Virus record (IMG/VR): IMGVR_UViG_3300034418_011092
Coordinates: 1-23,021 of that record
Direction: 5' to 3' (one strand)
DNA: 23,021 nucleotides
DNA from: a virus
Shown: positions 2,018-20,366 of the stretch, one piece after another
How the letters are laid out: each line of letters begins with the position of its first letter
Numbering within the stretch: position 1 is the first letter of the stretch
Program-made: the position numbers and the translations under genes
The notes under the pieces: generated by a model
Databases searched by the model: none
What the model was told of the DNA's origin: nothing
Seen by the model: the letters and a program-made list of their open reading frames with translations, nothing else

Positions 2018-2025
2018 CTTTAAAC
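2018..2025 (-). promoter_or_regulatory. GTTTAAAG element upstream of the fibre-like gene
   Basis: Exact GTTTAAAG on the minus strand, ending 25 nt before the GTG start at 1992. It lies in the 38-nt gap after the protease stop codon. It is one of eight copies (one imperfect) found at gene leaders in this window and is inferred to be a late-promoter core. Confidence 0.5.
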
Positions 2026-2030
2026 GGAGT

Positions 2031-5000
2031 TTAAGTATCAGATTTAGTAGTGTAGGGATAAATATCGTTTTCTAAGTCAAAAATTTGTTTTGGCGTTAGG
2101 ATAATAGGATTAGGCTCGGGCTCTTTTTTCTTATCTAAATCTTCTATTTCAAATTGCTTAGTTACTCTGTAGGGAACAGGCGCCTCTACAAAATTACCAA
2201 GAGAGCCAATTTGAACAACGTCGTAGCCAATCTCTGGAGTCTTTTGTCTATTGTACGATGTGCACTTATTCACCCCGGTTTTTAAACAATATAGCTTACG
2301 CCAAAATTCTTTAGGGCTAAAATTAATAAGCTGATTATAATTTGCAATTGTTGCCGGTACGTCAGAAAGAACCTCCCATAGGCACACGGTGTCTCCGCAT
2401 TCTCCTTCTGTTAAGAAGAAATCTCCTTTTCTATAGAAAAATTCTTTTCTTACTCGTGTTTCATTCCAGCTATCAGTGCCAGAATTTTTTAAACATTTTT
2501 CGAACTCTTCTGCATTAAATACCAGAGGATTAAGACAATTTTGCGCAGAGGTTTCATACACTGCTTCGGACCAAGTGCTTTCTATATTTCCCCACTCATC
2601 ATAAAAATAATCAATAGAGTAGAATGAGTAGGTTTGTTTTAAGAAATCTATGGTAGGAAGGCCGACTGGTATTGTTGTCTTTACGCTACAAACTTTTTTC
2701 CATAAGTTAAATTCAAATGGACCAGGAGTAGATAATATATTTTGTATGGCTTCATAGACAGATAACTCAAACCCATCATTTTCTATAAGCAAAACTCTAT
2801 CACCGGCAAAATATGCCACAAATTGTCTGTACCTAGCCACGCTCCATCTGGAGTCAGTCTGTGAAAAAATAATATTTGGAGTTTGATCAGATATTTCCCA
2901 AGGAAACTCTATTCCACCCCAAGAAGAAAATATACCTTTTTGTGTGTTATAAAAACTATATTTTTCCAATAACTGATCTATTGAATCTCCGCATGTGTTT
3001 TGATTTCCGCAAAGATCATTTTGTAATATAGGATCACTATCTACGTTTAATCTTCTTAGATTGAATGCCTGGCTCTCATTTAGACATTTAACATCGCCAA
3101 AAAGATTTATATTTGTTTTTAAATCTATAAATACAGACGCAGTAAATATCTCTTGGAGTACTGACCCATCTCCATTTATATCAAATGTAACTTTGCATCT
3201 CAAAAAATAATCATTGGAAGATAAAGAGGTTATATCTTCAGGAGTTAGTAACAACTCAATATCAGTTTTTCCCTCTATATCAGACCAACTTGAGTTATTG
3301 AGAGATATCTGCCATTGATAGCTTACATTTTGTATGGATGTAGAAGCTACCTCAAAGGTAATGTTTTGATTTTCGTTAGAGTCTCCTCTAACATCTACCT
3401 TTGAAGGTGGTTGTTGGATTATATCTACAAAGGGATTTAATGTTAATGTTATTACATCGGAAAACTGAATATTACCAATTACGTTATCTACCTTGCATCT
3501 ATAGGTATCTAAATAATCTGCGCCAGACGCAATAAATGAATAGTTCGCAGAATTAGAGTTAGGAATATCTTCCCAAATTGTACTTCCGTCTTCTTTCTTT
3601 TGCCAAGTATAAATATAAGATAGTATCGGGTTATTAATCTCTACGACTACTCCTAGTCCTATCTCATCTCCTATAGACGCTGTAATTGCAGAATCAACTA
3701 CGCCTTTTATTTCATATGAATCAGTTACTTCTATTACAGAACTGGATGTTGTAAAAGGTGAGCCTTGTGCTAATCCACCTGGATCGATAATTACGCATCT
3801 GTAGGTTCCCGCAGAAGATAAGGGAATTCTTGGGAAAGTTAATACTCCACTAGAGTTTATTTCTACTAATTCCCATGAACTTCCGTTAAATTTTTCCCAT
3901 CTAAAGGAAGGCGACCTTCCATCGCTTAATGTCGCACCTGCAGAAATAGAAAGCTCCTCTCCTTCTATTACTGAGATAGACTCAATAGGAGACCCAGTTA
4001 TTGTCAGTACTACGTCAAATATTGTTAATCTTGCAGGCAGAGAACGTAGCGGAGAGTTAAAGGATATATTATCTTGTACTACACAACGATATAACGCCTC
4101 ATCTGAGCTATTTATATTGAATAACTCTAATATAGATCCGTTAGCGTTTAATATATTTGTCCAAGATTGTCCTGAGTTTACAGATTTTTGCCACTGATAG
4201 GTAATTGCCCCTGCACCAGAAGACGAAGCTTCTACTTCAAACGTTGCGGATCCGGCAACAAACGAAGAAACATTGTCAGGTTGGTTGGTTATTGATAGAG
4301 TGGACTTAGAAACTGATAAGAAAGCAGAGGCTGAAATAACCGTGGAGTTAAGAGCTAACTCGTCGAATAAAACGCAGCGATATAACCCAGAATCTTGATC
4401 TGTTACGTTTTGTAAAGTAAGTATAGACTGGGTTGCAGAATTTATTGATCCCCAAGTTTGTCCGTCATTAAACGACCTTTGCCATTGGTACTCTAGAGTG
4501 CCGCCTGAATCAGTTACTGCATTTACTCTGAAGGTTGCAGCTTCGCCAAAATCAACCCTGGTCGGTTGAGGTTGAGTGATGATTGTAATTGTAAATACAG
4601 GAAGTACACTTAGTACTATTGTATTTGAAATTACTGGAGAATTAAACGCATCTACGCTAGAGACTACGCACCTATAGCTCCCAGAATCTTCTTCTTCTGA
4701 TGGGTCTTTAAAATACGACGCTCCTATTTCCTCTGCTAAATCTTCCCAAAGAGACGTAATTGTATTAAATTTTTGCCATTGATACGACAGGGAAATGCCC
4801 GCAACACTTACCCCAGCAGAAACAAATAAGTTAAATGGTGTGGTAAGAATTGTAGAAGTGTCATTTGATTGGGCTTCTATAGAGATATACGACGTTACAG
4901 ATAGCGTAGATACACTAGAGTAAACAGAGTTATAAGGACCGTTGGGAATAATGAGTACTCTGTACTCTGTGCCATCTTGAGAAATATTGTTTATTTTTTC

Positions 5001-7151
5001 TGAATATATCGCACTAAAAACGCCGGGAATTATTGAAAATTCAGACTCTCCCGGTAGTTTCTTTTCCCATTGGTATGTATAAGAATCTACGAATTGATTG
5101 ATACCAGGTGATATCGATAATACAATATTTCCAAATGGATTAGTTGTAACAGTTGGAGGGAGGTTTACTGATATGGTTATATCAGGAACAGTCTCATTAT
5201 AAAGAATAATGGGATCTTGTCCGAAAAGATTGTTAAACTCTCTCCATTCTATTGCGTTTTCCGTAAAAGGATCCGCGCCTAACTCAAAGTCAGTTACTGT
5301 GTCTTGTTTTTGTACTACGTTGTTTATGTAAGACTTAATTATTTTTGTGGTCCAGTTTCTATATTTAGATAACTTACTGGCAATGAATCCTGCGGCTACG
5401 GGGGAAGAGGATGATGTTCCGTCAATTGTGCCATCATACGCAGGAACATTTAACCAAGAATAAAAAGAATCAGAGTCGTATCTTTCATACTTTGTTCCGG
5501 TTCCGGTACCTACTAAAGCGCTTAGTACATCTCCACCGGGAGAGAAAATATCCACGCCTTTACCGGCGTTACTATAATAATCTTTACTTTCTTTACTATT
5601 TATATCTTTATACGAAGATAACGCGCCTACGGATATAGTTCTGTATCCGCCATTTTGCTCAGTAAACCCTCCTGCGTCCGCGGGAAAACCTCTTCTATTT
5701 ATATATTCTTTTTGTGTTTCGACGGGATTTGTATTTGTTCCAGCAAAGAACCAGTTGTCGTAATCAGGCCCGCTAGGTACATCTTGTTTTTGATTATAAT
5801 TACCTGCACTAGCAAAAAATATAATGTCCTGAAAATCGTCTAATAATTCGTCTCCAGATGATCTTAGACTTTGCGCAGCAAGAAGATTATAGGAAAATGT
5901 TCTATCAGTATCATATGAAGATATTCCCTTTAAAAAATTTGGGGCGTTTGCTATGCCAGTGTAAGAAGCAGCAGCGTTTGTCCTAAACTTATAGCTGCCT
6001 ATGTCTGTTATAGTGCTAATATACCCATAACTATTATTAATAACGAGCGGATCCCTTGTGTTATTCCTGTTAGGATTTAATGGCTTATTTTCATGAAATA
6101 TCTTTGTTATATCAAAGCAAACAGAAGGGGTGTTTATTAAATAACTAATACTATTGCCAATCTGCGCCGCAATTGTCCATTTATTTGCGTTAAACGCCCA
6201 ACCAAAAGTCCTGCCATATGCCATCGAAGCAACAGGTGTGCCATGATCTGCAACAGTGGCCGCAGGAACATTAGAAAAATCTCCACATACCGCAGCGCGA
6301 GTGTATCCGTCGTCTATGCTTGGAATGGTTCCTACAGACGCAAATTTCTCAGATCTCTTTGTACTATCTCTCCACCAATTTCTTGCGGCCTGCTCATCAC
6401 AAGTCAGCCTACCTAAATAGGTTACTACAAGGCCATTAGAAATAAAATAATCTGGATCGATATAGTATGGTCCATCGAGAACAAGATCTCTTACTAAAGA
6501 GACCTCAATTCCTACGTTTACGAACTCTGGATGGCCCATCCAAACACCATCGTCGATGATAAGCACATCGACGTCAGATCCATCCTCGTCTTCTTCGTAT
6601 TGAAAAGAGGAAGGCGAGATATTTACGTTCCCACCAAAATTTCTATTGAGGGAAAAACCATCAACGTTCGGAGAAGCAACTAATGGCGTATAGCTAAAAG
6701 GATCGGCTTTTGTTTGTGTTCTTAAAAGTCCCCAACTACTTCTAAAGTATTCTGCCTGACCGGGCACAGCAGGAGATATCGGAGGACCGTCAGTTGCGGG
6801 AGGTAGGGTTCTGTAAATTTTGTACCCTGCAAATGGCGCAGGGTCTGATAGACTCGGAAGAACCTGAGGAAACCTATTTACCAAAGCGTCTGCTTTTGGC
6901 CTTGGATAGGTCTCCATGTGAAAACCTGGATCTAGTTCAACATAATCTACTTTATTATTAGATCTGAGTAACTCTGCCTCCTCCTCATCTAATAAATACG
7001 TAGAGCGATATTTTGAATATTCTTTTTTATCAGAGCACTCGCAACACCTACTAGGCACATTGTCGCATAATGTGCCGTCTGTAGTTAAGAGTTCATGTAT
7101 CTCCGACCAAGCGGAGGGTGATTTTACGCGTACTACGTAATGCTTCTTCAT
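2031..7151 (-). CDS. Subtilisin-like (S8) serine protease with seven Ig-like domains
   Basis: A 1706-aa multidomain protein. The catalytic triad of the subtilase family is visible: D200 in IIDDGV, H303 in DHGTPVA, S580 in GTSSSSP, plus oxyanion N451 in ASAGN. The D-H spacing (103 residues) is longer than usual, so the domain carries insertions. Seven Ig-like domains of about 97 residues follow (about 654-1344), most with a YQW core and a YRC F-strand signature. Two tandem C-terminal modules (about 1394-1625) resemble carbohydrate-binding modules. The N-terminus is not an obvious signal peptide, and the first 190 residues could be a propeptide or virion-docking domain. The start is well supported by GGAGGGAG 8 nt upstream. 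It follows the tail-tube gene by 32 nt, so it is probably co-transcribed with it. Inferred: a virion-associated exo-enzyme that digests host surface protein, or a maturation protease. The triad is complete, so activity is plausible. Confidence 0.85.
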   Translation of the reverse strand: MKKHYVVRVKSPSAWSEIHELLTTDGTLCDNVPSRCCECSDKKEYSKYRSTYLLDEEEAELLRSNNKVDYVELDPGFHMETYPRPKADALVNRFPQVLPSLSDPAPFAGYKIYRTLPPATDGPPISPAVPGQAEYFRSSWGLLRTQTKADPFSYTPLVASPNVDGFSLNRNFGGNVNISPSSFQYEEDEDGSDVDVLIIDDGVWMGHPEFVNVGIEVSLVRDLVLDGPYYIDPDYFISNGLVVTYLGRLTCDEQAARNWWRDSTKRSEKFASVGTIPSIDDGYTRAAVCGDFSNVPAATVADHGTPVASMAYGRTFGWAFNANKWTIAAQIGNSISYLINTPSVCFDITKIFHENKPLNPNRNNTRDPLVINNSYGYISTITDIGSYKFRTNAAASYTGIANAPNFLKGISSYDTDRTFSYNLLAAQSLRSSGDELLDDFQDIIFFASAGNYNQKQDVPSGPDYDNWFFAGTNTNPVETQKEYINRRGFPADAGGFTEQNGGYRTISVGALSSYKDINSKESKDYYSNAGKGVDIFSPGGDVLSALVGTGTGTKYERYDSDSFYSWLNVPAYDGTIDGTSSSSPVAAGFIASKLSKYRNWTTKIIKSYINNVVQKQDTVTDFELGADPFTENAIEWREFNNLFGQDPIILYNETVPDITISVNLPPTVTTNPFGNIVLSISPGINQFVDSYTYQWEKKLPGESEFSIIPGVFSAIYSEKINNISQDGTEYRVLIIPNGPYNSVYSSVSTLSVTSYISIEAQSNDTSTILTTPFNLFVSAGVSVAGISLSYQWQKFNTITSLWEDLAEEIGASYFKDPSEEEDSGSYRCVVSSVDAFNSPVISNTIVLSVLPVFTITIITQPQPTRVDFGEAATFRVNAVTDSGGTLEYQWQRSFNDGQTWGSINSATQSILTLQNVTDQDSGLYRCVLFDELALNSTVISASAFLSVSKSTLSITNQPDNVSSFVAGSATFEVEASSSGAGAITYQWQKSVNSGQSWTNILNANGSILELFNINSSDEALYRCVVQDNISFNSPLRSLPARLTIFDVVLTITGSPIESISVIEGEELSISAGATLSDGRSPSFRWEKFNGSSWELVEINSSGVLTFPRIPLSSAGTYRCVIIDPGGLAQGSPFTTSSSVIEVTDSYEIKGVVDSAITASIGDEIGLGVVVEINNPILSYIYTWQKKEDGSTIWEDIPNSNSANYSFIASGADYLDTYRCKVDNVIGNIQFSDVITLTLNPFVDIIQQPPSKVDVRGDSNENQNITFEVASTSIQNVSYQWQISLNNSSWSDIEGKTDIELLLTPEDITSLSSNDYFLRCKVTFDINGDGSVLQEIFTASVFIDLKTNINLFGDVKCLNESQAFNLRRLNVDSDPILQNDLCGNQNTCGDSIDQLLEKYSFYNTQKGIFSSWGGIEFPWEISDQTPNIIFSQTDSRWSVARYRQFVAYFAGDRVLLIENDGFELSVYEAIQNILSTPGPFEFNLWKKVCSVKTTIPVGLPTIDFLKQTYSFYSIDYFYDEWGNIESTWSEAVYETSAQNCLNPLVFNAEEFEKCLKNSGTDSWNETRVRKEFFYRKGDFFLTEGECGDTVCLWEVLSDVPATIANYNQLINFSPKEFWRKLYCLKTGVNKCTSYNRQKTPEIGYDVVQIGSLGNFVEAPVPYRVTKQFEIEDLDKKKEPEPNPIILTPKQIFDLENDIYPYTTKSDT
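2277..2973 (-). repeat. Tandem C-terminal W/YxxGD modules of the protease
   Basis: Residues about 1394-1625 hold two diverged copies of one module. Each has YSFY, then W-x-x-I-x-x-x-W, then R-x-x-x-x-Y/F-x-x-GD, an aromatic strand, a proline, a closing W-[KR]-K-[VL] and C-x-KT. The Y-x-x-G-D...P...W order resembles CBM5/12-type chitin/carbohydrate-binding modules, and carbohydrate binding is an inference from that pattern alone. Confidence 0.5.
3121..5190 (-). repeat. Array of seven Ig-like domains in the protease
   Basis: Seven consecutive units of about 97 residues (about 654-1344). Typical units contain TYQWQK or SYQWQ (C strand), an L-x-x-x-x-x-x-D-x-x-x-YRC segment (E-F strands) and a closing S-V/L-T-V strand. 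The F-strand cysteine is conserved in five or six units. The partner B-strand cysteine is replaced by V, I or A, so the classical disulphide is absent. Units have diverged at DNA level, which suggests old duplication. Ig-like domains are known on many tailed-phage virion proteins as surface-adhesion decorations. Confidence 0.8.
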
Positions 7152-7159
7152 CTATTAAT

Positions 7160-7167
7160 CTCCCTCC
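7160..7167 (-). promoter_or_regulatory. Strong ribosome-binding site of the protease gene
   Basis: GGAGGGAG on the minus strand, 8 nt before the ATG at 7151. It is one of the two best Shine-Dalgarno sequences in the window and it fixes the protease start. It contrasts with the SD-less leaders of the genes behind GTTTAAAG. Confidence 0.8.
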
Positions 7168-7176
7168 GATCAAGGT

Positions 7177-7195
7177 ACCTATATCAGTTATAGGT
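7177..7195. repeat. Small inverted repeat over the tail-tube stop codon
   Basis: ACCTATA-TCAGT-TATAGGT is a perfect 7-bp stem with a 5-nt loop that holds the TGA stop of the tail-tube gene (read on the minus strand). It has no following T-run, so it is not a standard terminator. It could be a weak attenuator or RNA-stability hairpin between tube and protease, or chance. Confidence 0.3.
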
Positions 7196-7612: not shown

Positions 7613-7646
7613 AGCAGTTATGAATTATGCAATATTTCTATTTACT

Positions 7647-7654
7647 ATTTAAAC
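7647..7654 (-). promoter_or_regulatory. GTTTAAAT element upstream of tail tube
   Basis: One-mismatch copy of the GTTTAAAG element, 34 nt before the ATG at 7612, between the portal stop and the tube start. It matches the position and orientation of the other copies; the last base differs. Confidence 0.4.
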
Positions 7655-7671
7655 TAGGTTGAATATATCAA

Positions 7672-9537
7672 TTATTGAAAATACGGATCGAACCATCTCC
7701 AGTAGCCTTTGGCTTCTGGGTCAAGAGTTACTGCTTCTCTATGCACAGCGTATCTATTTATTCTAAATACATTGTGATAAAGAGTTACAAGGTCAGATAC
7801 ATCATTTTCCTCCATCCCTTCTGATTCAATTAGAGCTTTTAGTCTATATAGCTCAGTTTCTGATTTAGACTTAGACTCTGCAGCCTCAGCAGGGACCCTA
7901 CGCAAATCTTTTATTTCTTCGAGTAATCTCTCTATTACAAAGACAATTTCCCCTGGCGAGGTAAACTCGTCTATGTCTAACTTGGAGATCGCCATCTCAT
8001 TTCCTGTAGAGTCGCTTACAATTCTTTGGAAACCTACGTCGTCTAATGTACCCTTAAAGTTTGAGGAAATTGTTTGAGAAATCTTTTGCTTTTCAGAAGT
8101 TTCTTCAAAGTCAAATAGCTTCATCAGATCGGCTCCAAAGTCCATGTCTTCAGTTTCAGACATTGGGGCCTCTTCACCTTCTTGAGGAGGTGCTGCGCCC
8201 ATTCCGCCCATCTCTGGTGGCATTTCTTGCTTAACCAAAGAGGGAATATTGAGCTTTTCTCTTAGCCAATCGACATCTTCTACTGCATAACCAAGTGCAC
8301 CGAGCTGAGATAGAACCTGGACAATACGCACTGGGTCTTCGCGTTGCTTAAGATCCTCAAAGTTACGTACAAGACGCGGAGGATTTTTTCCAGGATAGTT
8401 GAGTTCAACAATCCATCGGACCAACGTAGAGTTAATTGTTTCATCAAGCTCTTCAGAAAACGCTTTAGCTTTGCGCATACGCACAGAGTCGGCGATTTGA
8501 TCGCGGGCGAATGAGCCAACACTTCCTGTCTCCTGGCCAACAGTTGTTTCGCCGTTAATCACAAAGCTAATTTGCTGATCAATATAGCTAACTAATTGAT
8601 CATATAGTTCCGGCCTTCCATTACTTTCCAGCCACTGAATATCCATCTCATCGGGCAAAACAATGGCGGTTTCTTGGCCCATTCTTTGAAGAGCGGTAAA
8701 TAACGCGTTCACTTCTTCTTCGGGTGTACCAAGACTAAATTTACCAACAGCTGTGGGCGTTGTATGTTTATCCGCGTATTGCAGCCAGAAATTAAGCAGA
8801 GTTCTTCTAAACTCGACAAGCGGATATAGTTGTCGGCCTAGGCCCGAACCATGCACGTCCATGAAATTACTATAGGCCCAGTGCCTATGTAATATCATCG
8901 ATCTAAGAGGAATTCCCATGCCCTCAACTGGCGAGAACATTGTAATAAGTCTAGGACTAATTGTCCCGTCTTCATTGAGCTTAAATAGGAACCTCCTAGG
9001 ATCCCGAATTTTAATCTCTGATGGAACAATATACTTCCCTTGCCTCATCCAGCAGATTTCTGCAATCGACATTCCTAGAATTATCGATTCGCACATTCCT
9101 CTGACAAATGTATCAAATCCAGAGTTCGTAGATACAAGGGCTTCTTTTCCATAAGACTGCCTTGTATTGCTGCCCATTCTATTGATTACTTGGCGAACAA
9201 ACTCGGCAACTTCTTCATCCTCAGGAGAATCAGAAGCGGGATAAACTTCCCAGTTTCTTTGTACAATTTCCCCTATAAGTTTTTCCCAAGCAGCGAGAAT
9301 TTGGCTATCATTAAATAGCCTCATGTATTTCTCAATAGCCCTAGGGCCACCACCACCCTCTTCTAGAAGGATGTCATCTCTACGAGGAAGGATTACTCCG
9401 CTGGTTAGATAAGGTGCTCCTGAATAGGAATACGGATCGGATTTATATCCGGCTAAATTACCTTGAGAAACTCCGAGGGAAAAATACCGGTCAAAAAACC
9501 CCGCCTTTATATGTCTCTTAGGATCTTTAGAGGTCAT
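7672..9537 (-). CDS. Portal protein, Mu gp29/DUF935 type
   Basis: A 621-aa protein. It forms the dodecameric ring at the capsid vertex through which DNA is packaged and ejected. Seen: the N-terminal portal wing region (WEKLIGEIVQRNWEVYP, residues 84-100), the GSGLGRQLYPLVEFRR segment (230-245) leading into NFWLQYADKHTTPTAVGKF (249-267), and the stem/crown segment GETTVGQETGSVGSFARDQI (329-348) with a long helix to about 380. These match the DUF935 portal family as I know it. A glycine/proline-rich acidic linker (about 437-465) is followed by a helical C-terminal extension to 621, longer than the family's usual size (about 500). The start at 9537 shares ATGA with a six-codon upstream frame and has no Shine-Dalgarno. 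GTTTAAAG lies 30 nt upstream. Terminase and capsid genes are not in the window. Confidence 0.9.
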   Translation of the reverse strand: MTSKDPKRHIKAGFFDRYFSLGVSQGNLAGYKSDPYSYSGAPYLTSGVILPRRDDILLEEGGGGPRAIEKYMRLFNDSQILAAWEKLIGEIVQRNWEVYPASDSPEDEEVAEFVRQVINRMGSNTRQSYGKEALVSTNSGFDTFVRGMCESIILGMSIAEICWMRQGKYIVPSEIKIRDPRRFLFKLNEDGTISPRLITMFSPVEGMGIPLRSMILHRHWAYSNFMDVHGSGLGRQLYPLVEFRRTLLNFWLQYADKHTTPTAVGKFSLGTPEEEVNALFTALQRMGQETAIVLPDEMDIQWLESNGRPELYDQLVSYIDQQISFVINGETTVGQETGSVGSFARDQIADSVRMRKAKAFSEELDETINSTLVRWIVELNYPGKNPPRLVRNFEDLKQREDPVRIVQVLSQLGALGYAVEDVDWLREKLNIPSLVKQEMPPEMGGMGAAPPQEGEEAPMSETEDMDFGADLMKLFDFEETSEKQKISQTISSNFKGTLDDVGFQRIVSDSTGNEMAISKLDIDEFTSPGEIVFVIERLLEEIKDLRRVPAEAAESKSKSETELYRLKALIESEGMEENDVSDLVTLYHNVFRINRYAVHREAVTLDPEAKGYWRWFDPYFQ

Positions 9538-9554
9538 TTGGTATTTTTAGACAT
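9534..9554 (-). CDS. Possible six-residue leader peptide before portal
   Basis: ATG at 9554 opens a frame encoding MSKNTK, whose TGA overlaps the portal ATG (ATGA). A purine-rich GAAGAA lies 3 nt upstream of this ATG, while the portal ATG itself has no SD. Ribosomes could load here and reinitiate on the portal. This is inference; so short a frame can arise by chance. Confidence 0.25.
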   Translation of the reverse strand: MSKNTK

Positions 9555-9567
9555 TATTCTTCAGTAT

Positions 9568-9575
9568 CTTTAAAC
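9568..9575 (-). promoter_or_regulatory. GTTTAAAG element upstream of portal
   Basis: Exact GTTTAAAG on the minus strand, 30 nt before the portal ATG. It lies in the 42-nt gap after the stop of the 58-aa gene. Inferred late-promoter core. Confidence 0.5.
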
Positions 9576-9579
9576 TTAG

Positions 9580-10697: not shown

Positions 10698-11133
10698 CGG
10701 TTGCAAGTTTGCGTAATTTTACATCTATAAAGCTAATTATATCACGATAGTTCCAGCAGTTGTCAATCTTGTTAAATAATTTATGATCGATTCGCCCGAG
10801 GTCCATGCCCGCTGTCATAAGCCGATTTACATCATCCCAGCAATTGCTTCCTGCTTCGTCGAATAAAAATATTCTCTTATCATCTTCTATTTCTTGCTTT
10901 TCTAAAAATCCGAGCACATTGAAAAAGTGAGATAGCATCGGAAGATCCCAACCAGCAAAGACTATAAAGTCCGAGGACTTAATCGTAGCTTCTGTAATCG
11001 ACTGTCTACTCTTAACCTCTATGTTTTCCTTTTCCGTTAAAATTTGCTCTAAATGAACAACCATTTTGTTTAAGTCAGATACCGTATCTACGGATCTTGC
11101 CCTAATAATTGTTACAGAGATCTTACTTGACAT
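10666..11133 (-). CDS. LOG/SLOG-like Rossmann-fold protein, degenerate motif
   Basis: 155 aa. The second half follows the layout of LOG-family (cytokinin-type phosphoribohydrolase, formerly annotated as lysine decarboxylase) and related SLOG nucleotide-binding proteins. It has a hydrophobic strand (SDFIVFAGW, 54-62), a helix (LPMLSHFFNVLGFLEK, 64-79), a strand (KRIFLFDEAG, 86-95), then WDDVNRLMTAGMDLGRID (99-116) and a closing helix. The diagnostic PGGxGTxxE motif is replaced by AGWDLPMLSH, so the family's usual phosphate-binding and catalytic residues are missing. I infer a nucleotide- or metabolite-binding relative without the standard activity; a divergent fold match is also possible. It leads the minus-strand operon and has GTTTAAAG 21 nt upstream, divergent from the 1288-aa gene. 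Confidence 0.55.
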   Translation of the reverse strand: MSSKISVTIIRARSVDTVSDLNKMVVHLEQILTEKENIEVKSRQSITEATIKSSDFIVFAGWDLPMLSHFFNVLGFLEKQEIEDDKRIFLFDEAGSNCWDDVNRLMTAGMDLGRIDHKLFNKIDNCWNYRDIISFIDVKLRKLATDANSGDSSIK

Positions 11134-11154
11134 AGTTTAGTTTAAGCTACAAAG

Positions 11155-11162
11155 CTTTAAAC
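11155..11162 (-). promoter_or_regulatory. GTTTAAAG element of the left-going operon
   Basis: Exact GTTTAAAG on the minus strand, 21 nt before the ATG at 11133. With the plus-strand copy at 11168-11175 it forms CTTTAAAC-CTAAA-GTTTAAAG, a perfect 8-bp inverted repeat with a 5-nt spacer. Confidence 0.5.
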
Positions 11163-11167
11163 CTAAA

Positions 11168-11175
11168 GTTTAAAG
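11168..11175 (+). promoter_or_regulatory. GTTTAAAG element of the right-going operon
   Basis: Exact GTTTAAAG, 20 nt before the ATG at 11196. It overlaps a second near copy (GTTTAAAA, 11175-11182). It is back to back with the minus-strand copy, so both operons could be fired from one 21-bp site. Confidence 0.5.
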
Positions 11176-11195
11176 TTTAAAAAAAGCTTCTTGAT

Positions 11196-14100: not shown

Positions 14101-15062
14101 TACCTATTGAAAACTCAATTACTCCAGAACAAGCTAGTCAATTATCCACTGTTATCTCTAGAGACTACTCATTTATCTCTGATAAAAAATTTAATAGCAC
14201 ATCAGAATCAGATATAATTAACAAGTTTGTTAAGTTTATTGAAAAAAGTAGGAAAATCTCAAAGTTAAATAGTGGTCAGTCTTTAATTAGCGAAAATATT
14301 ATCACAGAAGAAAATTCTAATTTACTTAAAAACCCCACCACGACGCAAGAAGACAAACCTTTGGTTTCCCTTGGAGATGATAAAAATGTCGAAGGTATGC
14401 TTCCTGCATTTTATACATCGACACCCTTTTCAGAAGGCGTAGAAAAAGACCAAGAAGATCTTCTTATTTCTAAAAAATTAATTTCAAAATTTGATCCATT
14501 AGAATCTTGTAAAAAGTTCGGAGGAGAAAATTGCGAAGATAGGGTGCAAACTAATATAAATACGTGCGGCGCAATAACAAATTCTGCCATATACCCAGAA
14601 AAAGACACAGCGCCGGTTTCTACGGTGTTAAATGGAAGCGTTCCTATCGATAGACCTTTGGGCTCTTCTGATCCTCAAACAAGACTATCTAATGTTTTCA
14701 TTCCTAATGGAAAAAATAACAAACCAGGATATTTTGATCTTTTAGGAGATGGTGTAAAAATAACTACTAACTCAGAGCCGGTACGATTGAACATAGACGC
14801 GGAGCCTTATGTATTTAAAAAAGAATCTTCTTTGGACAAAGAGGGTTTATTATCTCAGTACTATAGCTCAGAGTTCGGATTAATTGAGGCGATTAAAGCT
14901 GGGTGGGAAAAAGACGATCCATTTAACTGTTCATTACTCGAGGACCCATATGCGTACCAAGCATGCATGAACTTATTAAAATGTAAAAAATTTAAAAGAG
15001 AAAAAGGAATGTCCGTATTAAAATTCTGTCCTAAGACTCTTGCAGGAGGGTTATTGAAGTGA
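11196..15062 (+). CDS. Very large unknown protein, probably a virion component, 1288 aa
   Basis: I do not recognise a family. Most of the 1288 residues are I/L/K/N/S-rich and appear helical with few aromatic clusters. Two related segments near residues 471-520 share I-L-P-G-[YF]-x-G-L, followed by a helix. The last 190 residues differ: they are rich in cysteine (about 1105-1130 has C-K-K-F-G-G-x-N-C; the extreme C-terminus has several C-x-K/C-x-x-L pairs), P, D and S. Many long unknown phage genes next to fibre genes are baseplate or tail-tip proteins, and that is my inference from position. It leads a plus-strand operon behind a GTTTAAAG element. Its TGA overlaps the GTG of the next gene (GTGA), so the two are coupled. 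The start is ATG without a clear SD. Confidence 0.75.
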   Translation: MLSALTQRQLESVFVNLPRIIEDAFKSYELKEGAFEVRAEKELYNELYLDLINTVFERIEGEQPIRILPFYNKLLFITIKLNFNTERFLSLLKLIEVGVIAYLDREGIKNTNIEQSFLRYIESISNAIKTRDIFLKGTNVDELIQIIDEYAPSTAIVNRTIAASRLDGRRIYSLFSKDFYWEYQKKQNQKSEVFSGIRKTVYNNKLYLLNQGIAIPSYDSFDDEEWGEYTSKYLIKSKTFNEKLNSNLKTYISNALKTSKDINSSISDSKVEQLESNITYDQKDLKSSFGGAGENVVENVILLKTILKYFGNSQASPVGSVDYISLLCEYLYAFCFGRKINGGFSDVGGTSLLGDFNTLFSYGSNVNKIAGLKFLEGFKSLKSFSQNLDLPLDIEIKEEKEKLIYSAIYNPIYAKYISGIKDRYIAEDRNPYIKEVGVDLILFGLETILQTANRLGDTIEAIKISLDQSGILPGYEGLGPISIQIEEFSKVFITTSELDTKYANSKILPGFNGLLKYLVSSYQKLSDTVIYPSFTSESLENFNEWGREVENALGRLISNIKNLGYSPGNFVPNISFKYSAKDREIVIDQLRSLNFQENEINKFLSVESFEELLSIFSPITDSLDQVSFFKGYELTQLIYEFGGESAVDNYLSYLYSQDENGLLRVLNNTLKNKNKVSIYNENRFGKLVGLLINLTFAIDPDQLALFKDYLSGSNLDLFKSIEFLLQNRNANILLDKDNIEILAPLVESLIYGRSIFGYNSYSIGYGVADREAPLALQQLEDLIDKDLGRASIPLLRNLFDKFNGLSVKELIKIIGPGSFNTEYGQLVNGYEGGKLTKLINYAYFSGLLHRISYYTNSYQVPNFYISPDVSIRLDQFLVILESIKDLLNIVLTNLSGSIEFPFEDTNSNLYSFENIFNTQNKKIEEISKIVRNLVPINRDISNIASPSINGEAIIVGAPGTGNSPIPESIPIENSITPEQASQLSTVISRDYSFISDKKFNSTSESDIINKFVKFIEKSRKISKLNSGQSLISENIITEENSNLLKNPTTTQEDKPLVSLGDDKNVEGMLPAFYTSTPFSEGVEKDQEDLLISKKLISKFDPLESCKKFGGENCEDRVQTNINTCGAITNSAIYPEKDTAPVSTVLNGSVPIDRPLGSSDPQTRLSNVFIPNGKNNKPGYFDLLGDGVKITTNSEPVRLNIDAEPYVFKKESSLDKEGLLSQYYSSEFGLIEAIKAGWEKDDPFNCSLLEDPYAYQACMNLLKCKKFKREKGMSVLKFCPKTLAGGLLK
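15044..15050 (+). promoter_or_regulatory. Strong ribosome-binding site that decides the GTG start of the LRR gene
   Basis: AGGAGGG lies 8 nt before GTG at 15059, inside the end of the 1288-aa gene. The next in-frame ATG is about 92 codons downstream, so GTG is taken as the start. Confidence 0.8.
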
Positions 15063-15880
15063 AAATATCCACGAACTTTTTAATAGAAGAAGAAGGACTT
15101 GTATTTCTTCCTTTTGATAAAAAACAGACCAGGTCTTTTAATTATGTGAGATTTGAAGATCAAGAATTAGTTTCAAATGACATAGTTAAATTACAAAAAC
15201 AAAAAACTAACTCTGCACGAATTTCTATTGATACGCAAGATATCTCTATAAAAGAGTTAAAACTAACGAACCAAAATATATTAACTTGGGATGATTTATG
15301 GATTGATAACTTCGATGGAAGTAGTATTGATCCTATGATCGAATCAATTAACCTTCAAAGAAATTCTTTACTTTACGTAAACTTTAATTTAAAAAGAGAT
15401 AAGTTAAGATTTTTAAACTTAGAAGGTAACGCAAATCTGAAAACTTTTATAGGAACAGAGTTGAATGCTTTAGAAGTCTTAGATTTAAGTAATTGCATAA
15501 ACCTAGAGTCTGTAAATCTAGGGTTGTCTAAGAATATTAGGATGTTAAGTTTAAAGAATTGTAGGTTAACTGAAGCTGGGCTAGAACAGGTACTATCCTC
15601 TTTTATCCCTACAAAAACTGCTTCTGCAAACATTAGACCAGGATCTTTACCTCCCTTTAGAAAGCTCTATGAAACTCTTCTAGATCTTAGGGGTAATGAC
15701 ATAAATTGGGGGAATAGAAGAATAGCTTCTAAAATAAGATTATTAGTTACAAACAATTGGTTGGTTTTATGGGATAACCCTCCGCCCACAAGCGTAATTC
15801 CTATTCAAATGTACGCATTTTTCCCTAAGAATATAAAGGACACAGAAATTTCTCGGTATTATGGCAGACCTTCGCTCTAG
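15059..15880 (+). CDS. Leucine-rich-repeat protein
   Basis: 273 aa, starting with GTG. Leucine-rich repeats are plainly visible: LKLTNQNI (67-74), LRFLNLEGNANLKTF (116-130), LEVLDLSNCINLESV (138-152), IRMLSLKNCRL (160-170) and LLDLRGNDI (207-215). The flanks at 1-60 and 240-273 are not repeats; the C-terminus is proline/aromatic-rich. LRRs form curved solenoids that bind proteins and are rare in phage virion genes. The gene is translationally coupled (GTGA) to the 1288-aa gene and overlaps the fibre gene downstream by 20 nt. I infer a fibre-attached, tail-tip or host-binding adapter; a cytoplasmic effector of the host cannot be excluded. Confidence 0.8.
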   Translation: MKISTNFLIEEEGLVFLPFDKKQTRSFNYVRFEDQELVSNDIVKLQKQKTNSARISIDTQDISIKELKLTNQNILTWDDLWIDNFDGSSIDPMIESINLQRNSLLYVNFNLKRDKLRFLNLEGNANLKTFIGTELNALEVLDLSNCINLESVNLGLSKNIRMLSLKNCRLTEAGLEQVLSSFIPTKTASANIRPGSLPPFRKLYETLLDLRGNDINWGNRRIASKIRLLVTNNWLVLWDNPPPTSVIPIQMYAFFPKNIKDTEISRYYGRPSL

Positions 15881-16940: not shown

Positions 16941-16941
16941 A

Positions 16942-17784
16942 ATGGCAGGGAACTCGTCTTCGCTATTTATAGGGCGGAATAAAAGAACGTTATTTTTGCC
17001 ATCTATTGATTTTACGACCGTAATTGACACTAGTGGCTCTAATTCCGCGTACTATAACACGTTTTATGTAATAAATAGATACTCAGAGCTAGAGACTAAT
17101 TTAAAAAACTTAGGTATAGGGGCGTTTCCCTCTAGGGTAAATAAATATAGTTTTTGTATTGGCAGCACAGTTGGTACTGCATTGTCAGCAATTGAAAGAA
17201 ACGTAGTAATAAATGGCAGTCTTTTTACAAGGTGGGCAACAGGAGATAATTTTCAAAATGACACCGTAGCTCTTGGAAACCTATCTATAAATTCCCAAGA
17301 CGGAATAATAAATTCTGCAAACTTAGTCAGTGGTACAGATCGAGGATACGACACAAATGCAATAAGAGTGGTCTTTGGGATTTCTAACGACATTACTGCA
17401 AACACCACTCAAACATTTAACACTACGGACCTATTTCCATATAAGTATGTAGGATTACATAGTCTTACGTTTTCTTATATAGCAGGACAAGATCAAGGAC
17501 CAAATCCGGTTCCTGCAGGGACTTGGGTAGGGTTTTTCTATGAAACAAATACATTAGGCACTGCAATCTACATCAACGGAACCGTTATTAACTATAGAAA
17601 AGAAGTGCCCATTGCAAGTGTTGGCGTAGGTGGTCTTACAATAGCATCACAACGTTGTGTTACGCGGGCAATAAATACTAATGGCGCACTATATATCTCT
17701 GAGCAATTTAACTCCGCAGCCCGCGCTACGCAATTATTCGAGTCATTTAGCGAGATTATAAAGGACAACCTGACCCTAGTCTAA
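16942..17784 (+). CDS. Fibre-like beta-rich virion protein
   Basis: 280 aa, rich in S, T, N, G and Y and alternating beta strands (for example FYVINRYSEL near 42-51; VNKYSFCIGSTVG near 66-78). No family is recognised. It begins 1 nt after the fibre gene ends, with AGGA about 11 nt upstream, and it ends the plus-strand operon. Its 3' end overlaps the end of the opposing 115-aa gene by 9 nt. Composition and place suggest a second fibre subunit or receptor-binding tip; this is inference. Confidence 0.65.
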   Translation: MAGNSSSLFIGRNKRTLFLPSIDFTTVIDTSGSNSAYYNTFYVINRYSELETNLKNLGIGAFPSRVNKYSFCIGSTVGTALSAIERNVVINGSLFTRWATGDNFQNDTVALGNLSINSQDGIINSANLVSGTDRGYDTNAIRVVFGISNDITANTTQTFNTTDLFPYKYVGLHSLTFSYIAGQDQGPNPVPAGTWVGFFYETNTLGTAIYINGTVINYRKEVPIASVGVGGLTIASQRCVTRAINTNGALYISEQFNSAARATQLFESFSEIIKDNLTLV

Positions 17785-18123
17785 AAACACTTCCTCAAGG
17801 ATAGATTTTTTTAGCCGAATTGAGTAAATCGGCCCGACTTTTTTAAACACTACCATCATAATATATTCTCTTTCGTCTTTCTTAGTGGGTAAAAGTTGCT
17901 CTCTAATGGAAATATAAGCATCTCTGCCCCCGAGCATAAGCTCAATTTGCTTGGTATCAAATATCCAAGAGATGTCATCTTGGCTTTTTGTGGCTACATA
18001 TAATCCTATCGGGGCGTTATTTAATACGGCGCTCCTAAACCCAGGAATGAGCGTTTTTTCTTTAGAATAAATTCCTTCAAATATAGTCCTAATTTTATCT
18101 TGTTCTTCTGGATTTTCAAACAT
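17776..18123 (-). CDS. Unknown 115-aa protein coupled to dCMP deaminase
   Basis: The frame opens with GTG at 18126 or ATG at 18123. I chose ATG because it shares its A with the TGA of dCMP deaminase (TGATG), a typical coupling arrangement. The protein has mixed alpha/beta character, with hydrophobic strands (APIGLYVATKSQDD near 37-50; EYIMMVVFKKVGPIYSIRL near 85-103) and no cysteine. I do not recognise a family. Its coupling hints at a nucleotide-metabolism or host-takeover role, but that rests on neighbourhood only. The stop overlaps the opposing fibre-like gene by 9 nt, leaving no room for a terminator. Confidence 0.7.
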   Translation of the reverse strand: MFENPEEQDKIRTIFEGIYSKEKTLIPGFRSAVLNNAPIGLYVATKSQDDISWIFDTKQIELMLGGRDAYISIREQLLPTKKDEREYIMMVVFKKVGPIYSIRLKKSILEEVFLD

Positions 18124-18530
18124 CACATTCGCTCCACTTCTACGCCAAGTTTACGAAGTACGTCGATTCCTTCGTTAATTCTATACTCGTTTCTGTAATA
18201 AACTTTTTTAATACCGCTCTGAGCAATCATCTTTGAACAATCAGGACAAGGACTATGAGTGCAAAACAGCTCTGACTTGTCAATGGACTCGGAAGATTTT
18301 GCCATCTTTACCAAAGCATTTTGTTCTGCATGGAGAACAAAGGGATTGGTAGTTCCGTCTTCTAGCTCACAGCAATTGGTATGAAAACCCGACGGAGTTC
18401 CGTTCCACCCATGCGCCAATATGCTCCCGTTTTTAACTACAATTGCGCCTACCTTGAGCTTTTTACAATTAGAAACCTGGGCAAATAGTTCTGCAGTTTT
18501 CATGTACGCTTCTTTTATCTCAGGTTTCAT
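18123..18530 (-). CDS. dcd-like (dCMP deaminase): Deoxycytidylate (dCMP) deaminase
   Basis: 135 aa. It converts dCMP to dUMP, feeding dTMP synthesis in the infected cell. The zinc-dependent cytidine-deaminase motifs are complete: H67-A-E69 (HAEQNAL) and C95-x-x-C98 (SPCPDCSKMI), with GWNGTPSGF (41-49), typical of phage and bacterial dCMP deaminases. It lies within the family's size range and shows no truncation. A good SD (AGAGG) precedes the ATG and a TATAAT hexamer lies about 24 nt upstream, without GTTTAAAG. It is coupled to the 115-aa gene. I infer earlier expression than the structural genes. The symbol is descriptive; dcd properly names dCTP deaminase. Confidence 0.93.
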   Translation of the reverse strand: MKPEIKEAYMKTAELFAQVSNCKKLKVGAIVVKNGSILAHGWNGTPSGFHTNCCELEDGTTNPFVLHAEQNALVKMAKSSESIDKSELFCTHSPCPDCSKMIAQSGIKKVYYRNEYRINEGIDVLRKLGVEVERM

Positions 18531-18553
18531 AAACTGCCTCTAGTGTTGTATAT

Positions 18554-18559
18554 ATTATA
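18554..18559 (-). promoter_or_regulatory. Possible sigma70-type -10 box of dCMP deaminase
   Basis: Perfect TATAAT on the minus strand, with the start codon 23 nt downstream. No convincing -35 hexamer is visible 16-18 nt upstream. It overlaps the end of the gene at 18563-18862 region by position only (just downstream of its stop). A+T-rich context could give this by chance. Confidence 0.35.
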
Positions 18560-18562
18560 TCA

Positions 18563-18862
18563 CTATATGGGCTTGTGGTTTATTTTTTTGATGCCTTGTT
18601 CATCTTTTAAAAACTTTTTATAAGCCTCAAAATGTCTGACGTCTTCTTCGCCTAAAAATACTTTGCCAGTTTTGGGTGGTCTAACTCTTTTCTTTTTAAG
18701 AGCCGGAGGTTCGTAAGTTAGTTCTTCTTGAGCCGTAGCATCATTAAAAAAATTTTCTAGTTCATCTTGAGTAGGAACAGAAGACATTATTACTTCTGTA
18801 TTATGTTGCTCTTGGGACGAACTAGAGTTAGTTAGTTTTGTTGTTTTTCTTCTAGTTGTCAT
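18563..18862 (-). CDS. Unknown basic protein, 99 aa
   Basis: No recognised family. The first 25 residues are T/S/K-rich; residues 30-50 are acidic (DELENFFNDATAQEE); residues 55-70 are very basic and proline-rich (LKKKRVRPPKTGK). It looks partly disordered. Its ATG overlaps the TGA of the preceding 132-aa gene (ATGA), and GAAGAAGAG upstream serves as SD, so it is probably the second gene of a late-type transcript led by the element at 19276-19283. Small virion or scaffold-associated protein is possible, unproven. Confidence 0.65.
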   Translation of the reverse strand: MTTRRKTTKLTNSSSSQEQHNTEVIMSSVPTQDELENFFNDATAQEELTYEPPALKKKRVRPPKTGKVFLGEEDVRHFEAYKKFLKDEQGIKKINHKPI

Positions 18863-19257
18863 ACTCTTCTTCTTTTACATGTGCTGCACCCGGCCCAACC
18901 CTGTACTCTAGACGGGCCAACGTACTGAGTTCCTGGAGCGTCGGTTAAAGGACCGGACTCATATAGCCCTGGAGCAAGACTCGAGCTCTTTCTCGTGGCT
19001 TTTTCTGTCCAGTTTTGCCATCCCCACATATCTTCGGAACCATAGACATGGGGACTTTGTTGAGAGTTGTTTGCCATATTTGCTCTAGTCGCGTAACTAG
19101 GTCCTGGATTTACCCTATTAGAACTCCGTAGGTATCTATCTTGAGATAACGCTTGGCGCACATAAGAGGTGTTTTGCGTAGTTCTGTCTCTATAGTCAGA
19201 GTTGCTACGCGATCCTTCCCAGGATTCATAAGGAGAACTTGATGAATTTATAGCCAT
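18859..19257 (-). CDS. Unknown low-complexity protein, 132 aa, with C-terminal CxxCKRRR
   Basis: The protein is dominated by S, N, R, Y, G and P and lacks long hydrophobic stretches, so it is probably disordered. Two tryptophan pairs (WGWQNW near 78-83) break the pattern. The C-terminus is GCSTCKRRRV, with a C-x-x-C and a basic tail. I do not recognise a family. AGGAAAAAG upstream gives a moderate SD, and GTTTAAAG lies 18 nt before the ATG. Coupled by ATGA to the 99-aa gene. A small virion or packaging-associated part is plausible from context only. Confidence 0.65.
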   Translation of the reverse strand: MAINSSSSPYESWEGSRSNSDYRDRTTQNTSYVRQALSQDRYLRSSNRVNPGPSYATRANMANNSQQSPHVYGSEDMWGWQNWTEKATRKSSSLAPGLYESGPLTDAPGTQYVGPSRVQGWAGCSTCKRRRV

Positions 19258-19275
19258 GTTCTTTTTCCTAATGAT

Positions 19276-19283
19276 CTTTAAAC
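19276..19283 (-). promoter_or_regulatory. GTTTAAAG element of the 132/99-aa operon
   Basis: Exact GTTTAAAG on the minus strand, 18 nt before the ATG at 19257. It is divergent from the plus-strand copy at 19301-19308, with 17 nt between them. Confidence 0.5.
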
Positions 19284-19300
19284 ATAAAATTAAAATTAGG

Positions 19301-19308
19301 GTTTAAAG
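19301..19308 (+). promoter_or_regulatory. GTTTAAAG element of the tail-chaperone operon
   Basis: Exact GTTTAAAG, 25 nt before the ATG at 19334. It is the second back-to-back pair in the window, this time with a 17-nt spacer. Confidence 0.5.
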
Positions 19309-19333
19309 AAAATTACATATATAAGCCATAACT

Positions 19334-19678
19334 ATGCCCTCGAGTAAAATGTCAAGACCTGGCGCAGAAGCAGGAGAACAACTTGATATCTCTAATGATT
19401 TTGATTTTGGAGATCCAGAGGTAGTCCCTGTAGAAGTATCTGAAGGTAAATATATTTATTTAAAAGAGCCTTGTGCAGAGGATCTGATCCACATTTCCGA
19501 TATAAATGACGATGAAAAACTAAGCGAAATTGAGGCCACATTGCAAACAATTTGCGTTCTTCATATGCCAATAAATGGCGGAAAGAAACTAACGATGAAA
19601 GACGCAAAAAAACTCACTGCAAGACAGCTCAAAAAAATTGGAGAAGCAATGGGGGCTCTATTAGGATCAAATGAGTGA
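19334..19678 (+). CDS. Tail assembly chaperone-like protein, 114 aa
   Basis: The middle segment VPVEVSEGKYIYLKEPCAEDLIHI (about 32-55, broken here for description) has the strand-G-strand-E/K-P-x-x-x-D-L pattern of phage tail assembly chaperones. It is followed by a helical C-terminus with an LTMKDAKKLTARQLKKIGEA segment (about 86-105). The family binds tape-measure or tail proteins during tail assembly; known members sit upstream of the tape measure. Here the sheath gene follows three genes later. No SD is evident. It overlaps the next gene by 8 nt. I see no evidence for a programmed frameshift joining the two. Assignment is by pattern, so moderate confidence. Confidence 0.5.
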   Translation: MPSSKMSRPGAEAGEQLDISNDFDFGDPEVVPVEVSEGKYIYLKEPCAEDLIHISDINDDEKLSEIEATLQTICVLHMPINGGKKLTMKDAKKLTARQLKKIGEAMGALLGSNE

Positions 19679-20090
19679 TGAGTACGTAATAGAAAGAGAG
19701 CATAATTACACCGTATCTATAGAAGATAAAAACAAAAAAAGATTAGTATTTAGGGACATAACAGGACAAGATTTAGAGTTTTTAGAAAGGTTTATTAACA
19801 AAGAAAAAGAATTAAACTTAGAAGATGTTATAAAAATTTTGGAATTATTAAATGTTTCAAGTACTTCTATAAGAAAGATTACACCTAGAGTAATCAAAGA
19901 AATATTTGAAATTGTAGCAAAAGAAATACTATGTAATTTTATGACAAAACTTCAGTGGTTAGAAGTTTGTTATGCTTTACAAAATAATTCTTTTGTTGCT
20001 TTATCTTTTTTTGAATCTCAACCAATGACAAAAGTTATGGCAATGATTCAGGTTCATAAGAAAGCAGTCGATGGAATCAAAAGCTCTTAG
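19671..20090 (+). CDS. Second tail assembly chaperone-like protein, 139 aa
   Basis: It begins with AGGA 8 nt upstream and overlaps the previous gene by 8 nt. Residues 13-35 (TVSIEDKNKKRLVFRDITGQ then DLEFL) repeat the beta-strand then D-L-E-F-L layout of the preceding protein, and the rest is helical. The C-terminal third is methionine- and phenylalanine-rich (SFFESQPMTKVMAMIQ near 112-127). I read it as a partner chaperone of the preceding protein, or a small tail-initiator-associated protein. Position between the chaperone and the sheath fits assembly, not catalysis. Function not proven. Confidence 0.45.
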   Translation: MSDEYVIEREHNYTVSIEDKNKKRLVFRDITGQDLEFLERFINKEKELNLEDVIKILELLNVSSTSIRKITPRVIKEIFEIVAKEILCNFMTKLQWLEVCYALQNNSFVALSFFESQPMTKVMAMIQVHKKAVDGIKSS

Positions 20091-20096
20091 AAATAA

Positions 20097-20339
20097 ATGA
20101 CCGACGAATTACGCTTAAAACTTATTTTAATCTTATGCTCAGTAACAGTTGATAAAAACCAATCTAGGTTAAGGGAACTTGTGCAAGTTTGCTCTTACTA
20201 TGTGACTGATAATGATTTTAATAAGATTATGCGTAAGTCTTTAAAAATCTTAGAAACACAAAAATGCGGTATTGAAAGCTGCACGGATTGGCTAATGAAT
20301 AATCTTTTTGAGTTGTACAAGAACAATTTGGAAGATTAA
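20097..20339 (+). CDS. Unknown helical protein, 80 aa
   Basis: A small protein starting ATG at 20097, 6 nt after the preceding stop. It is helical, with hydrophobic segment LILILCSVTV (about 8-17) and paired cysteines (C57, C62). No family recognised. It belongs to the tail-assembly operon by spacing. Only a weak purine-rich site precedes it. The same string ATAAATGACCG recurs at 20345-20355, just before the sheath promoter. Confidence 0.6.
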   Translation: MTDELRLKLILILCSVTVDKNQSRLRELVQVCSYYVTDNDFNKIMRKSLKILETQKCGIESCTDWLMNNLFELYKNNLED

Positions 20340-20358
20340 AGGTTATAAATGACCGTTT

Positions 20359-20366
20359 GTTTAAAG
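20359..20366 (+). promoter_or_regulatory. GTTTAAAG element upstream of tail sheath
   Basis: Exact GTTTAAAG, 39 nt before the sheath ATG, the longest leader of the set. It lies in the 66-nt gap after the 80-aa gene. Confidence 0.5.

Follow-up and report, generated by a model that had tools for sequence, protein, structure and literature searches.

A recurring word upstream of genes in a TIM5-like fragment

The virus record IMGVR_UViG_3300034418_011092 (IMG/VR; 23,021 bases, the whole of which is called the window here) covers part of the genome of a TIM5-like cyanomyophage, a member of a marine cyanophage lineage separate from the T4-like and T7-like ones. Its portal protein (7672-9537) exhibits 85% identity over the full length to the portal of cyanophage S-TIM5, and 84.5-85% identity to those of three other TIM5 isolates. 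Matches to the respective families are likewise obtained with the genes for tail sheath and tail tube, and the gene order around the divergent gaps is alike in the window and in S-TIM5. We focused on an 8-base word, GTTTAAAG, that recurs upstream of genes in this window. The original prediction, made from the sequence of the window, had read this word as a candidate late-promoter core served by a phage-modified or phage-encoded sigma factor.

Both strands of the window together hold eight copies of GTTTAAAG, against 1.89 expected (standard deviation 1.30; maximum of 5 in 100 shuffles); a rough estimate by eye had put the expectation at one to two. Seven of the eight lie in sense orientation 18-39 nucleotides (nt) upstream of a gene start, on the + as well as the - strand, the orientation following the gene (Table 1). 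All seven sites stand where they had been predicted, and so does the variant GTTTAAAT before the tail tube gene. The intergenic DNA, previously given as about 400 nt, amounts to 414 nt for a list of 19 genes. In the stretches from -60 to -6 of these 19 genes, GTTTAAAG ranks first of 845 distinct 8-mers (7 occurrences versus 0.16 expected), and among the 560 8-mers of GTTTAAAG composition the runner-up has 2. The leaders exhibit GTTTAAAG and not the T4 late motif TATAAATA, as had been stated. The eighth copy, already noticed as the single intragenic one, is probably a chance copy and is not taken as a promoter.

Table 1. Positions in the window of GTTTAAAG and of the other words discussed in the text
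Word	Position	Strand	Gap to start (nt)	Start	Context
GTTTAAAG	2018..2025	-	25	1992	tail-fibre-like gene
GTTTAAAT (variant)	7647..7654	-	34	7612	tail tube gene
GTTTAAAG	9568..9575	-	30	9537	portal gene
TGATATAAT	10736..10744	-		10706	before the start of an open reading frame; in S-TIM5 one is located at 57475, ahead of 57522
GTTTAAAG	11155..11162	-	21	11133	left half of first divergent pair
GTTTAAAG	11168..11175	+	20	11196	right half of first divergent pair
GTTTAAAA	11175-11182				overlaps the GTTTAAAG element at 11168..11175
GTTTAAAG	15549..15556	+			within gene 15059-15880; no listed start up to 60 nt downstream
TGATATAAT (sigma70-like extended -10)	18554..18562	-		18530	counterpart of the S-TIM5 deaminase gene
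GTTTAAAG	19276..19283	-	18	19257	left half of second divergent pair
GTTTAAAG	19301..19308	+	25	19334	right half of second divergent pair
GTTTAAAG	20359..20366	+	39	20406	tail sheath gene

Several of these arrangements recur in the relatives. A divergent GTTTAAAG pair is also found in S-TIM5 (57041 on the - strand, 57054 on the + strand), the gap of the sheath gene is identical in S-TIM5 and S-TIM54, and the GTTTAAAT of the tail tube gene occurs at an equal distance in S-TIM5 (60542-60549, before start 60584). An upstream GTTTAAAT is present in 50 of the 80 related loci introduced below, not necessarily always before the tail tube gene.

Two neighbouring genes of the window may be described in their own right. 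The 1706-residue protein of 2031-7151 has what look like repeated Ig-like domains, following active-site stretches that we take to be subtilisin-like; its place is held by a protein of 485 residues in S-TIM5 and of 2140 residues in S-TIM54. The product of 15059-15880 appears leucine-rich-repeat-like by eye, and its gene is flanked by virion-type genes.

Distribution of the word and its one-base variant among relatives

The S-TIM5 and S-TIM54 records have been deposited as complete genomes. Counting the word in related genomes and testing its position relative to gene starts had been proposed as checks of the original prediction, and both turned out strongly in its favour. The word is in strong excess, with 36 copies in S-TIM5 and 38 in S-TIM54; 25 and 28 of these, respectively, lie within 60 nt upstream of deposited starts, where 1.04 would be expected in each genome, and GTTTAAAG holds rank one among 8440 (S-TIM5) and 8390 (S-TIM54) upstream words. 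Virion genes are preferred. In S-TIM5 the word is found at -60 to -6 of 17 of the 47 virion or packaging genes versus 8 of the 165 others (p = 1.6e-7), and in S-TIM54 it is upstream of 17/46 versus 11/163. Between 10 and 39.4 kb, where host-like genes abound, the word precedes none of 65 S-TIM5 genes and a single one of 64 in S-TIM54. What is observed is a fixed word, in a fixed range and in sense orientation, upstream of genes of late type; their class is judged from gene content, which supports the late-promoter reading, and their timing would be late by the same token. The claim that the word is shared by nearly all operon-leading genes holds in the window, where all four strand-switch leaders (11133, 11196, 19257, 19334) have it, but fails genome-wide, the exact word being present at 10 of 31 strand-switch leaders in S-TIM5 and at 12 of 29 in S-TIM54.

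AT-richness was considered as a cause of the excess and rejected, because the word is retained at 56% G+C in two relatives (L090, L091); it also outranks the 559 other 8-mers of the same composition.

The set of relatives comprises 80 portal loci fetched from IMG/VR. The commoner upstream word is GTTTAAAG in 56 of them, GTTGAAAG in 20 and neither in 4. The 20 GTTGAAAG loci comprise all those whose portal identity does not exceed 61%, with the exception of L103 (60%, GTTTAAAG), and in addition L098 and L114 at 63%. The portal leader itself was compared in 71 of the 80 loci (omitting L047, L067, L071-L074, L076, L119 and L121). The fourth base of its word is T or G according to clade: 49 leaders have T (GTTTAAAG), 20 have G (GTTGAAAG), and two (L080 and L093) have neither word at the start codon chosen by the script, GTTTAAAG being present once a wider stretch is read. 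A portal tree of 58 of the 80 loci together with S-TIM5 and S-CBWM1 requires a single change of the T/G label (43 T and 16 G rows). The GTTGAAAG clade receives a support of 100 in the Shimodaira-Hasegawa-like approximate likelihood ratio test (a quick method), and its sister L085 carries GTTTAAAG. The same division is seen beyond the portal leader. Among 23 longer records, grouped by portal, or by the sigma-family protein SigF where fetched via SigF, all 23 are richer in the word of their own group; the GTTGAAAG records G008 and G009 have 28 and 39 copies of GTTGAAAG versus 4 and 3 of GTTTAAAG. The GTTGAAAG clade is apparently derived and GTTTAAAG ancestral. Since the branch of S-CBWM1 is very long, this polarity rests mainly on the occurrence of GTTTAAAG in both deep branches and in the sister L085. 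That many sites exchanged one base together points to an altered reader.

Outside the TIM5 group, the isolate nearest by portal is S-CBWM1 (36%). No GTTTAAAG occurs in 50 kb of its genome (89070-139069, L154). Its whole record contains GGGTAAAA in 33 forward copies and 1 reverse copy, the reversed word giving 4 and 1. The 50 kb include 16 forward GGTAAAA places. Nine of these are followed 23-29 nt later by an annotated start (among them those of the portal, tape measure and peptidase genes), two are at 4-6 nt before a start and two beyond 300 nt. Going by its one-sidedness and these positions, GGGTAAAA is probably the late promoter of S-CBWM1, in which two sigma factors are annotated. The shared shape G-N-N-T/G-A-A-A (N, any base) is suggestive of one kind of box whose specificity shifts.

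Anatomy of the proposed promoter and a candidate sigma factor

Column counts were based on nonredundant sites, 109 of 293 for GTTTAAAG and 77 of 118 for GTTGAAAG. Several GTTGAAAG phages exceed 50% G+C, so that signals stand out in them. With the first base of the word as offset 0, the GTTGAAAG sites exhibit C at offset 8 in 87%, and T, A, G and R (purine) at offsets 13-16 in 74, 87, 73 and 92%, respectively. This TAGR lies 5 nt downstream of the word, and in 42 of the 77 sites TAG begins precisely at offset 13. No -35 block was found: over the 35 nt upstream, no column exceeds 0.35 bit in either the 77 GTTGAAAG or the 109 GTTTAAAG sites. As far as sequence conservation goes, this is a single -10-type box without a -35 box. 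Within the word, the first G and the fifth-base A have almost no substitute in both clades; the main variants tolerated in the GTTTAAAG clade include A in place of T as second base and T in place of G as last base. Near-invariance of the fifth-base A is what one would expect if it were the A that flips out in a -10 box.

With starts called from our own open reading frames, only 6-7 nt separate the word from ATG at 8 of the 109 GTTTAAAG sites and 3 of the 77 GTTGAAAG sites. The GTTTAAAG at 68140-68147 of S-TIM54 is likewise 6-7 nt before a deposited start, and a similar case is seen in L092. Such spacing leaves no room for a -35 reading. Leaderless late mRNAs are possible in these two cases, because the predicted transcription start would fall at the ATG. 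A word located 5 nt before a T-purine-G step, together with start codons at 6-7 nt, fits a -10 box with its start site and not a -35 box.

A phage-encoded sigma factor, as suggested by the original prediction, is indeed at hand. S-TIM5 and S-TIM54 possess genes annotated SigF, many relatives encode this sigma-family protein as well, and it varies with the promoter word. A first SigF profile matches 7 of the 23 longer records (all incomplete), including, with weaker matches, the GTTGAAAG records G008 and G009; a second scan returned 11 loci, of which 9 lie in other contigs. By sequence, SigF contains sigma regions 2 and 3 with genuine but weak scores (Pfam region 2: 23.7, cut-off 24), and Pfam region 4 has no match in it. 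The best family scores are obtained with SigF and SigB/SigF/SigG models, although below the cut-off of the curated SigF family (43 versus 261 bits). A profile search of solved structures brings up cyanobacterial SigA over SigF regions 2-3. In a predicted model, taken from the close relative L028 (predicted template-modelling score, pTM, of 0.34), residues 1-227 align with sigma factors. Structure matches of the whole protein exhibit a global root-mean-square deviation near 18 Å; this stems from domain placement, and our statements are therefore kept to the domain level. The C-terminal 75 residues are nearest to region-4 folds with middling scores (best Z of 7.2, 3.2 Å over 67 residues; Foldseek E > 1). 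In this model SigF may keep a region-4-like domain in the same chain as regions 2 and 3.

The SigF comparison included 42 loci, S-TIM5 and S-TIM54. Omitted were L019, L023, L032, L034, L038, L041, L142 and L153 (short, cut or near-copies), as well as L123-L129 (other loci of those records being already in the set). Two sets were defined by the SigF sequence, not by the word of each locus. Residue 77 is histidine in 34 rows and glutamine in 10. GTTTAAAG is found upstream in 24 of the 34 His77 rows and in 0 of the 10 Gln77 rows, GTTGAAAG in 3 of the 34 and 8 of the 10. The columns between 66 and 92 that split both sets without exception are 70, 73, 77, 78 and 88, in a gapless match to SigA regions 2.3-2.4. 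We single out residue 77 because its position presumably adjoins the sigma70 residue that reads the -12 base; it is a candidate for the residue that matters in the choice of word. The SigF gene of S-TIM5 belongs to a same-strand run, the first gene of which has GTTTAAAG at 122783. A search for the SigF of L085, the sister of the GTTGAAAG clade, gave no match in six records (fragments of 4-47 kb) and was made without a positive control.

Other upstream words may belong to further promoter classes. TGNTATAAT, a sigma70-like extended -10 sequence, has 25 copies in S-TIM5 and is found before the deaminase, NrdA and ThyX genes. TGGTATAAT is located 19 nt upstream of the S-TIM5 deaminase gene, and again 73 nt before the gene that precedes SigF in this genome; the SigF gene pair of S-TIM54 has no exact TGNTATAAT copy. 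Words of TGNTATAAT type are not in excess in the window alone (2 versus 1.5 expected). TGATATAA is among the top upstream words of S-TIM5 (10 versus 0.49 expected). GATTAAAG is enriched upstream when S-TIM5, S-TIM54 and the window are taken together (16 versus 1.0 expected). Its S-TIM5 places are 25201, 26678, 29363, 30023, 85719, 133205, 156385 and 170433, seven of the eight preceding genes without a virion annotation, and it is perhaps a second promoter class.

Interpretation, alternatives and known systems

We consider it quite probable that GTTTAAAG is a single-element late promoter core, namely an extended -10 box read by SigF with the host polymerase. SigF, as a group-3-like sigma factor, would bind the core of the host RNA polymerase and recognise the 8-bp word alone, without a -35 box, and the DNA would melt at the word. 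RNA would start about 6-8 nt past the word, at or beside a T-purine step (TAGR in the GTTGAAAG clade). Leaders would consequently be short, mostly about 10-35 nt, and about zero where the word is 6-7 nt before ATG. SigF and its promoter set would co-evolve, with GTTTAAAG in most of the lineage and GTTGAAAG in the one clade that appears derived. SigF would at first be host-driven and late transcription then self-amplified, in the order of the 7-11/phiEco32 scheme as given in PMC4331800. A further proposition, to which we give an even chance, is that the whole late regulon of one lineage was re-addressed, GTTTAAAG giving way to GTTGAAAG while the phage sigma changed in parallel (with His77 to Gln in region 2.4 as the candidate change), S-CBWM1 being on GGGTAAAA.

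Several observations weigh against this interpretation. The downstream feature of the GTTTAAAG clade is weak and loose: TAGR occurs at offset 12-16 in 17 of the 109 sites, to be compared with a mean of 6.4 and a maximum of 16 in 1000 shuffles. In S-TIM5, 11 of the 36 copies have no start within 60 nt, 30 of the 47 virion genes are without an exact copy at -60 to -6, and 26 of the 47 are without any of the eight variants checked; these 26 would need operon read-through or other promoters. Three of the GGTAAAA places of S-CBWM1 lie 62-95 nt before starts (capsid, sheath and one hypothetical gene). GTTGAAAG also exceeds its reversed control in the GTTTAAAG records G001 (10/5), G002 (10/2) and G003 (8/2). 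As to the reader, the SigF of the window's own phage is not seen in the 23-kb record, the pTM of the whole-SigF model is low, and a region-4-like domain would normally read a -35 box. The match of sigma to word is imperfect as well. One His77 locus (L022) has one upstream GTTGAAAG and no GTTTAAAG, S-TIM5 and S-TIM54 each have one upstream GTTGAAAG, neither word is present in 7 of the 44 SigF rows (L024, L026, L027, L031, L040, L139, L144), and four have a word solely outside -60 to -8 (L028, L130, L137, L145). Finally, 28 SigF columns in residues 13-140 share no residue between the sets, and the agreement of sigma and promoter rests on one evolutionary split; residue 77 is therefore a candidate and nothing beyond that.

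Among the alternatives, GTTTAAAG could be the -35 box of a SigB/SigF-type promoter having a separate -10 box 12-15 nt downstream. The word does resemble the -35 box of group-3 sigma factors, which is GTTTAA for Bacillus sigma-B, and the phage sigma scores best against the SigF and SigB/SigF/SigG models; the predicted C-terminal domain of SigF nearest to region 4 and an AT-rich downstream stretch in the S-TIM5 leaders are also in line with it. However, gaps of 18-22 and 6-7 nt would place the start site of such a promoter inside the gene, and the GTTGAAAG clade exhibits no -10-like block 12-15 nt downstream, the TAGR at offsets 13-16 being its sole strong feature. The short gaps and the position of TAGR led us to reject the -35 reading, which we regard as unlikely. 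A fixed word upstream of one gene class on both strands could equally be the box of a phage activator that, like T4 MotA, acts with the host sigma70, and sigma70-like TGNTATAAT sites do exist in S-TIM5. But a box near -30 needs a downstream -10, and none is conserved in either clade; many leaders are too short for this arrangement, with which copies as near as 6-7 nt to the ATG are at odds. An activator site is thus very unlikely.

The fixed distance of TAGR from the word is reminiscent of the start region of T7-type promoters, and so would be accounted for if the word were the promoter of a single-subunit phage RNA polymerase. The corresponding family, PF00940, however, has no match in seven records (S-TIM5, S-TIM54, S-CBWM1 and four IMG/VR fragments), whereas the positive control Syn5 does match, which makes this possibility scarcely credible. 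Proximity to start codons would also befit an element acting at the RNA level, as a translation or processing signal. The preference for virion genes and the back-to-back copies in divergent gaps do not agree with such a role, for which the word is moreover too close to the ATG in some leaders; we hold it to be highly improbable.

Read as an extended -10 box, the TIM5 word can be set beside several known systems. Cyanobacterial group-3 SigF and Bacillus SigB provide the best sigma model scores, and GGGTAAAA of S-CBWM1 resembles their -10 box, GGGTAA/GGGTAT. The phage SigF differs from them in falling far below the curated cut-off, in leaving Pfam region 4 unmatched and in the lack of a conserved -35 box. 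The T4-like cyanophages Syn9, S-PM2 and P-SSM2 infect the same group of marine cyanobacteria. In contrast to the TIM5-like phages they exhibit no excess of GTTTAAAG (3, 7 and 7 copies versus 7, 18 and 10 of the reversed word), and a homologue of gp33 (phrog_254) is present in 3/3 of them versus 0/5 TIM5-like records (three fragments and the complete S-TIM5 and S-TIM54). Whole-record counts of TATAAATA against its reversed word are 16/12 in S-TIM5 and 17/10 in S-TIM54, a comparison of little power because the T4-like Syn9 (9/6) is also near its reversed control.

If the word is a late promoter, it would give operon maps for many unnamed virion genes of TIM5-like phages and would mark late genes in metagenomic fragments. 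It would also offer a testable case of dozens of promoters changing together with the sigma factor that reads them, and the re-addressing proposed above, if true, would amount to a natural series of orthogonal sigma-promoter pairs in these phages. Among the matches listed in our literature search there is no report on TIM5-like promoters; the S-TIM5 genome paper may hold an earlier mention. Two papers containing 'GTTTAAA' were set aside, the excerpts in question being a table of host-type promoters of a Pseudomonas phage and a table of CRISPR repeats, neither of which concerns this word.

A close parallel is the late system of T4. As described in a review (PMC2988020), its promoters consist of an 8-bp -10 box and have no -35 box, gp55 being their reader and gp33 being placed at the flap; a related change of the late word is on record there for Aeromonas phage Aeh1. 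On the -10 reading of the word, T4 and the TIM5-like phages have in common one 8-bp box at the -10 place, used on both strands before virion genes, with a sigma-family reader. They differ in the word found at the window leaders, and in that T4 splits the roles over gp55 and gp33, whereas SigF appears to be one chain with regions 2, 3 and a region-4-like part. Should this be true, SigF would be akin to the 'fused' late sigma that, according to the same review (PMC2988020), had not been found. In phiEco32 and 7-11, as described in PMC4331800, a phage sigma goes with an extended -10-like motif of TAATGTATA type upstream of structural genes, host promoters serve the early genes, and the sigma gene is read from both kinds of promoter. 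A phage-encoded sigma together with one extended -10-like motif is what these phages would share with the TIM5 lineage; the word and the phage lineage are different. The kind of system is thus already known from T4 gp55 and the phiEco32 sigma, and its TIM5 variant is new as far as the literature searched shows.

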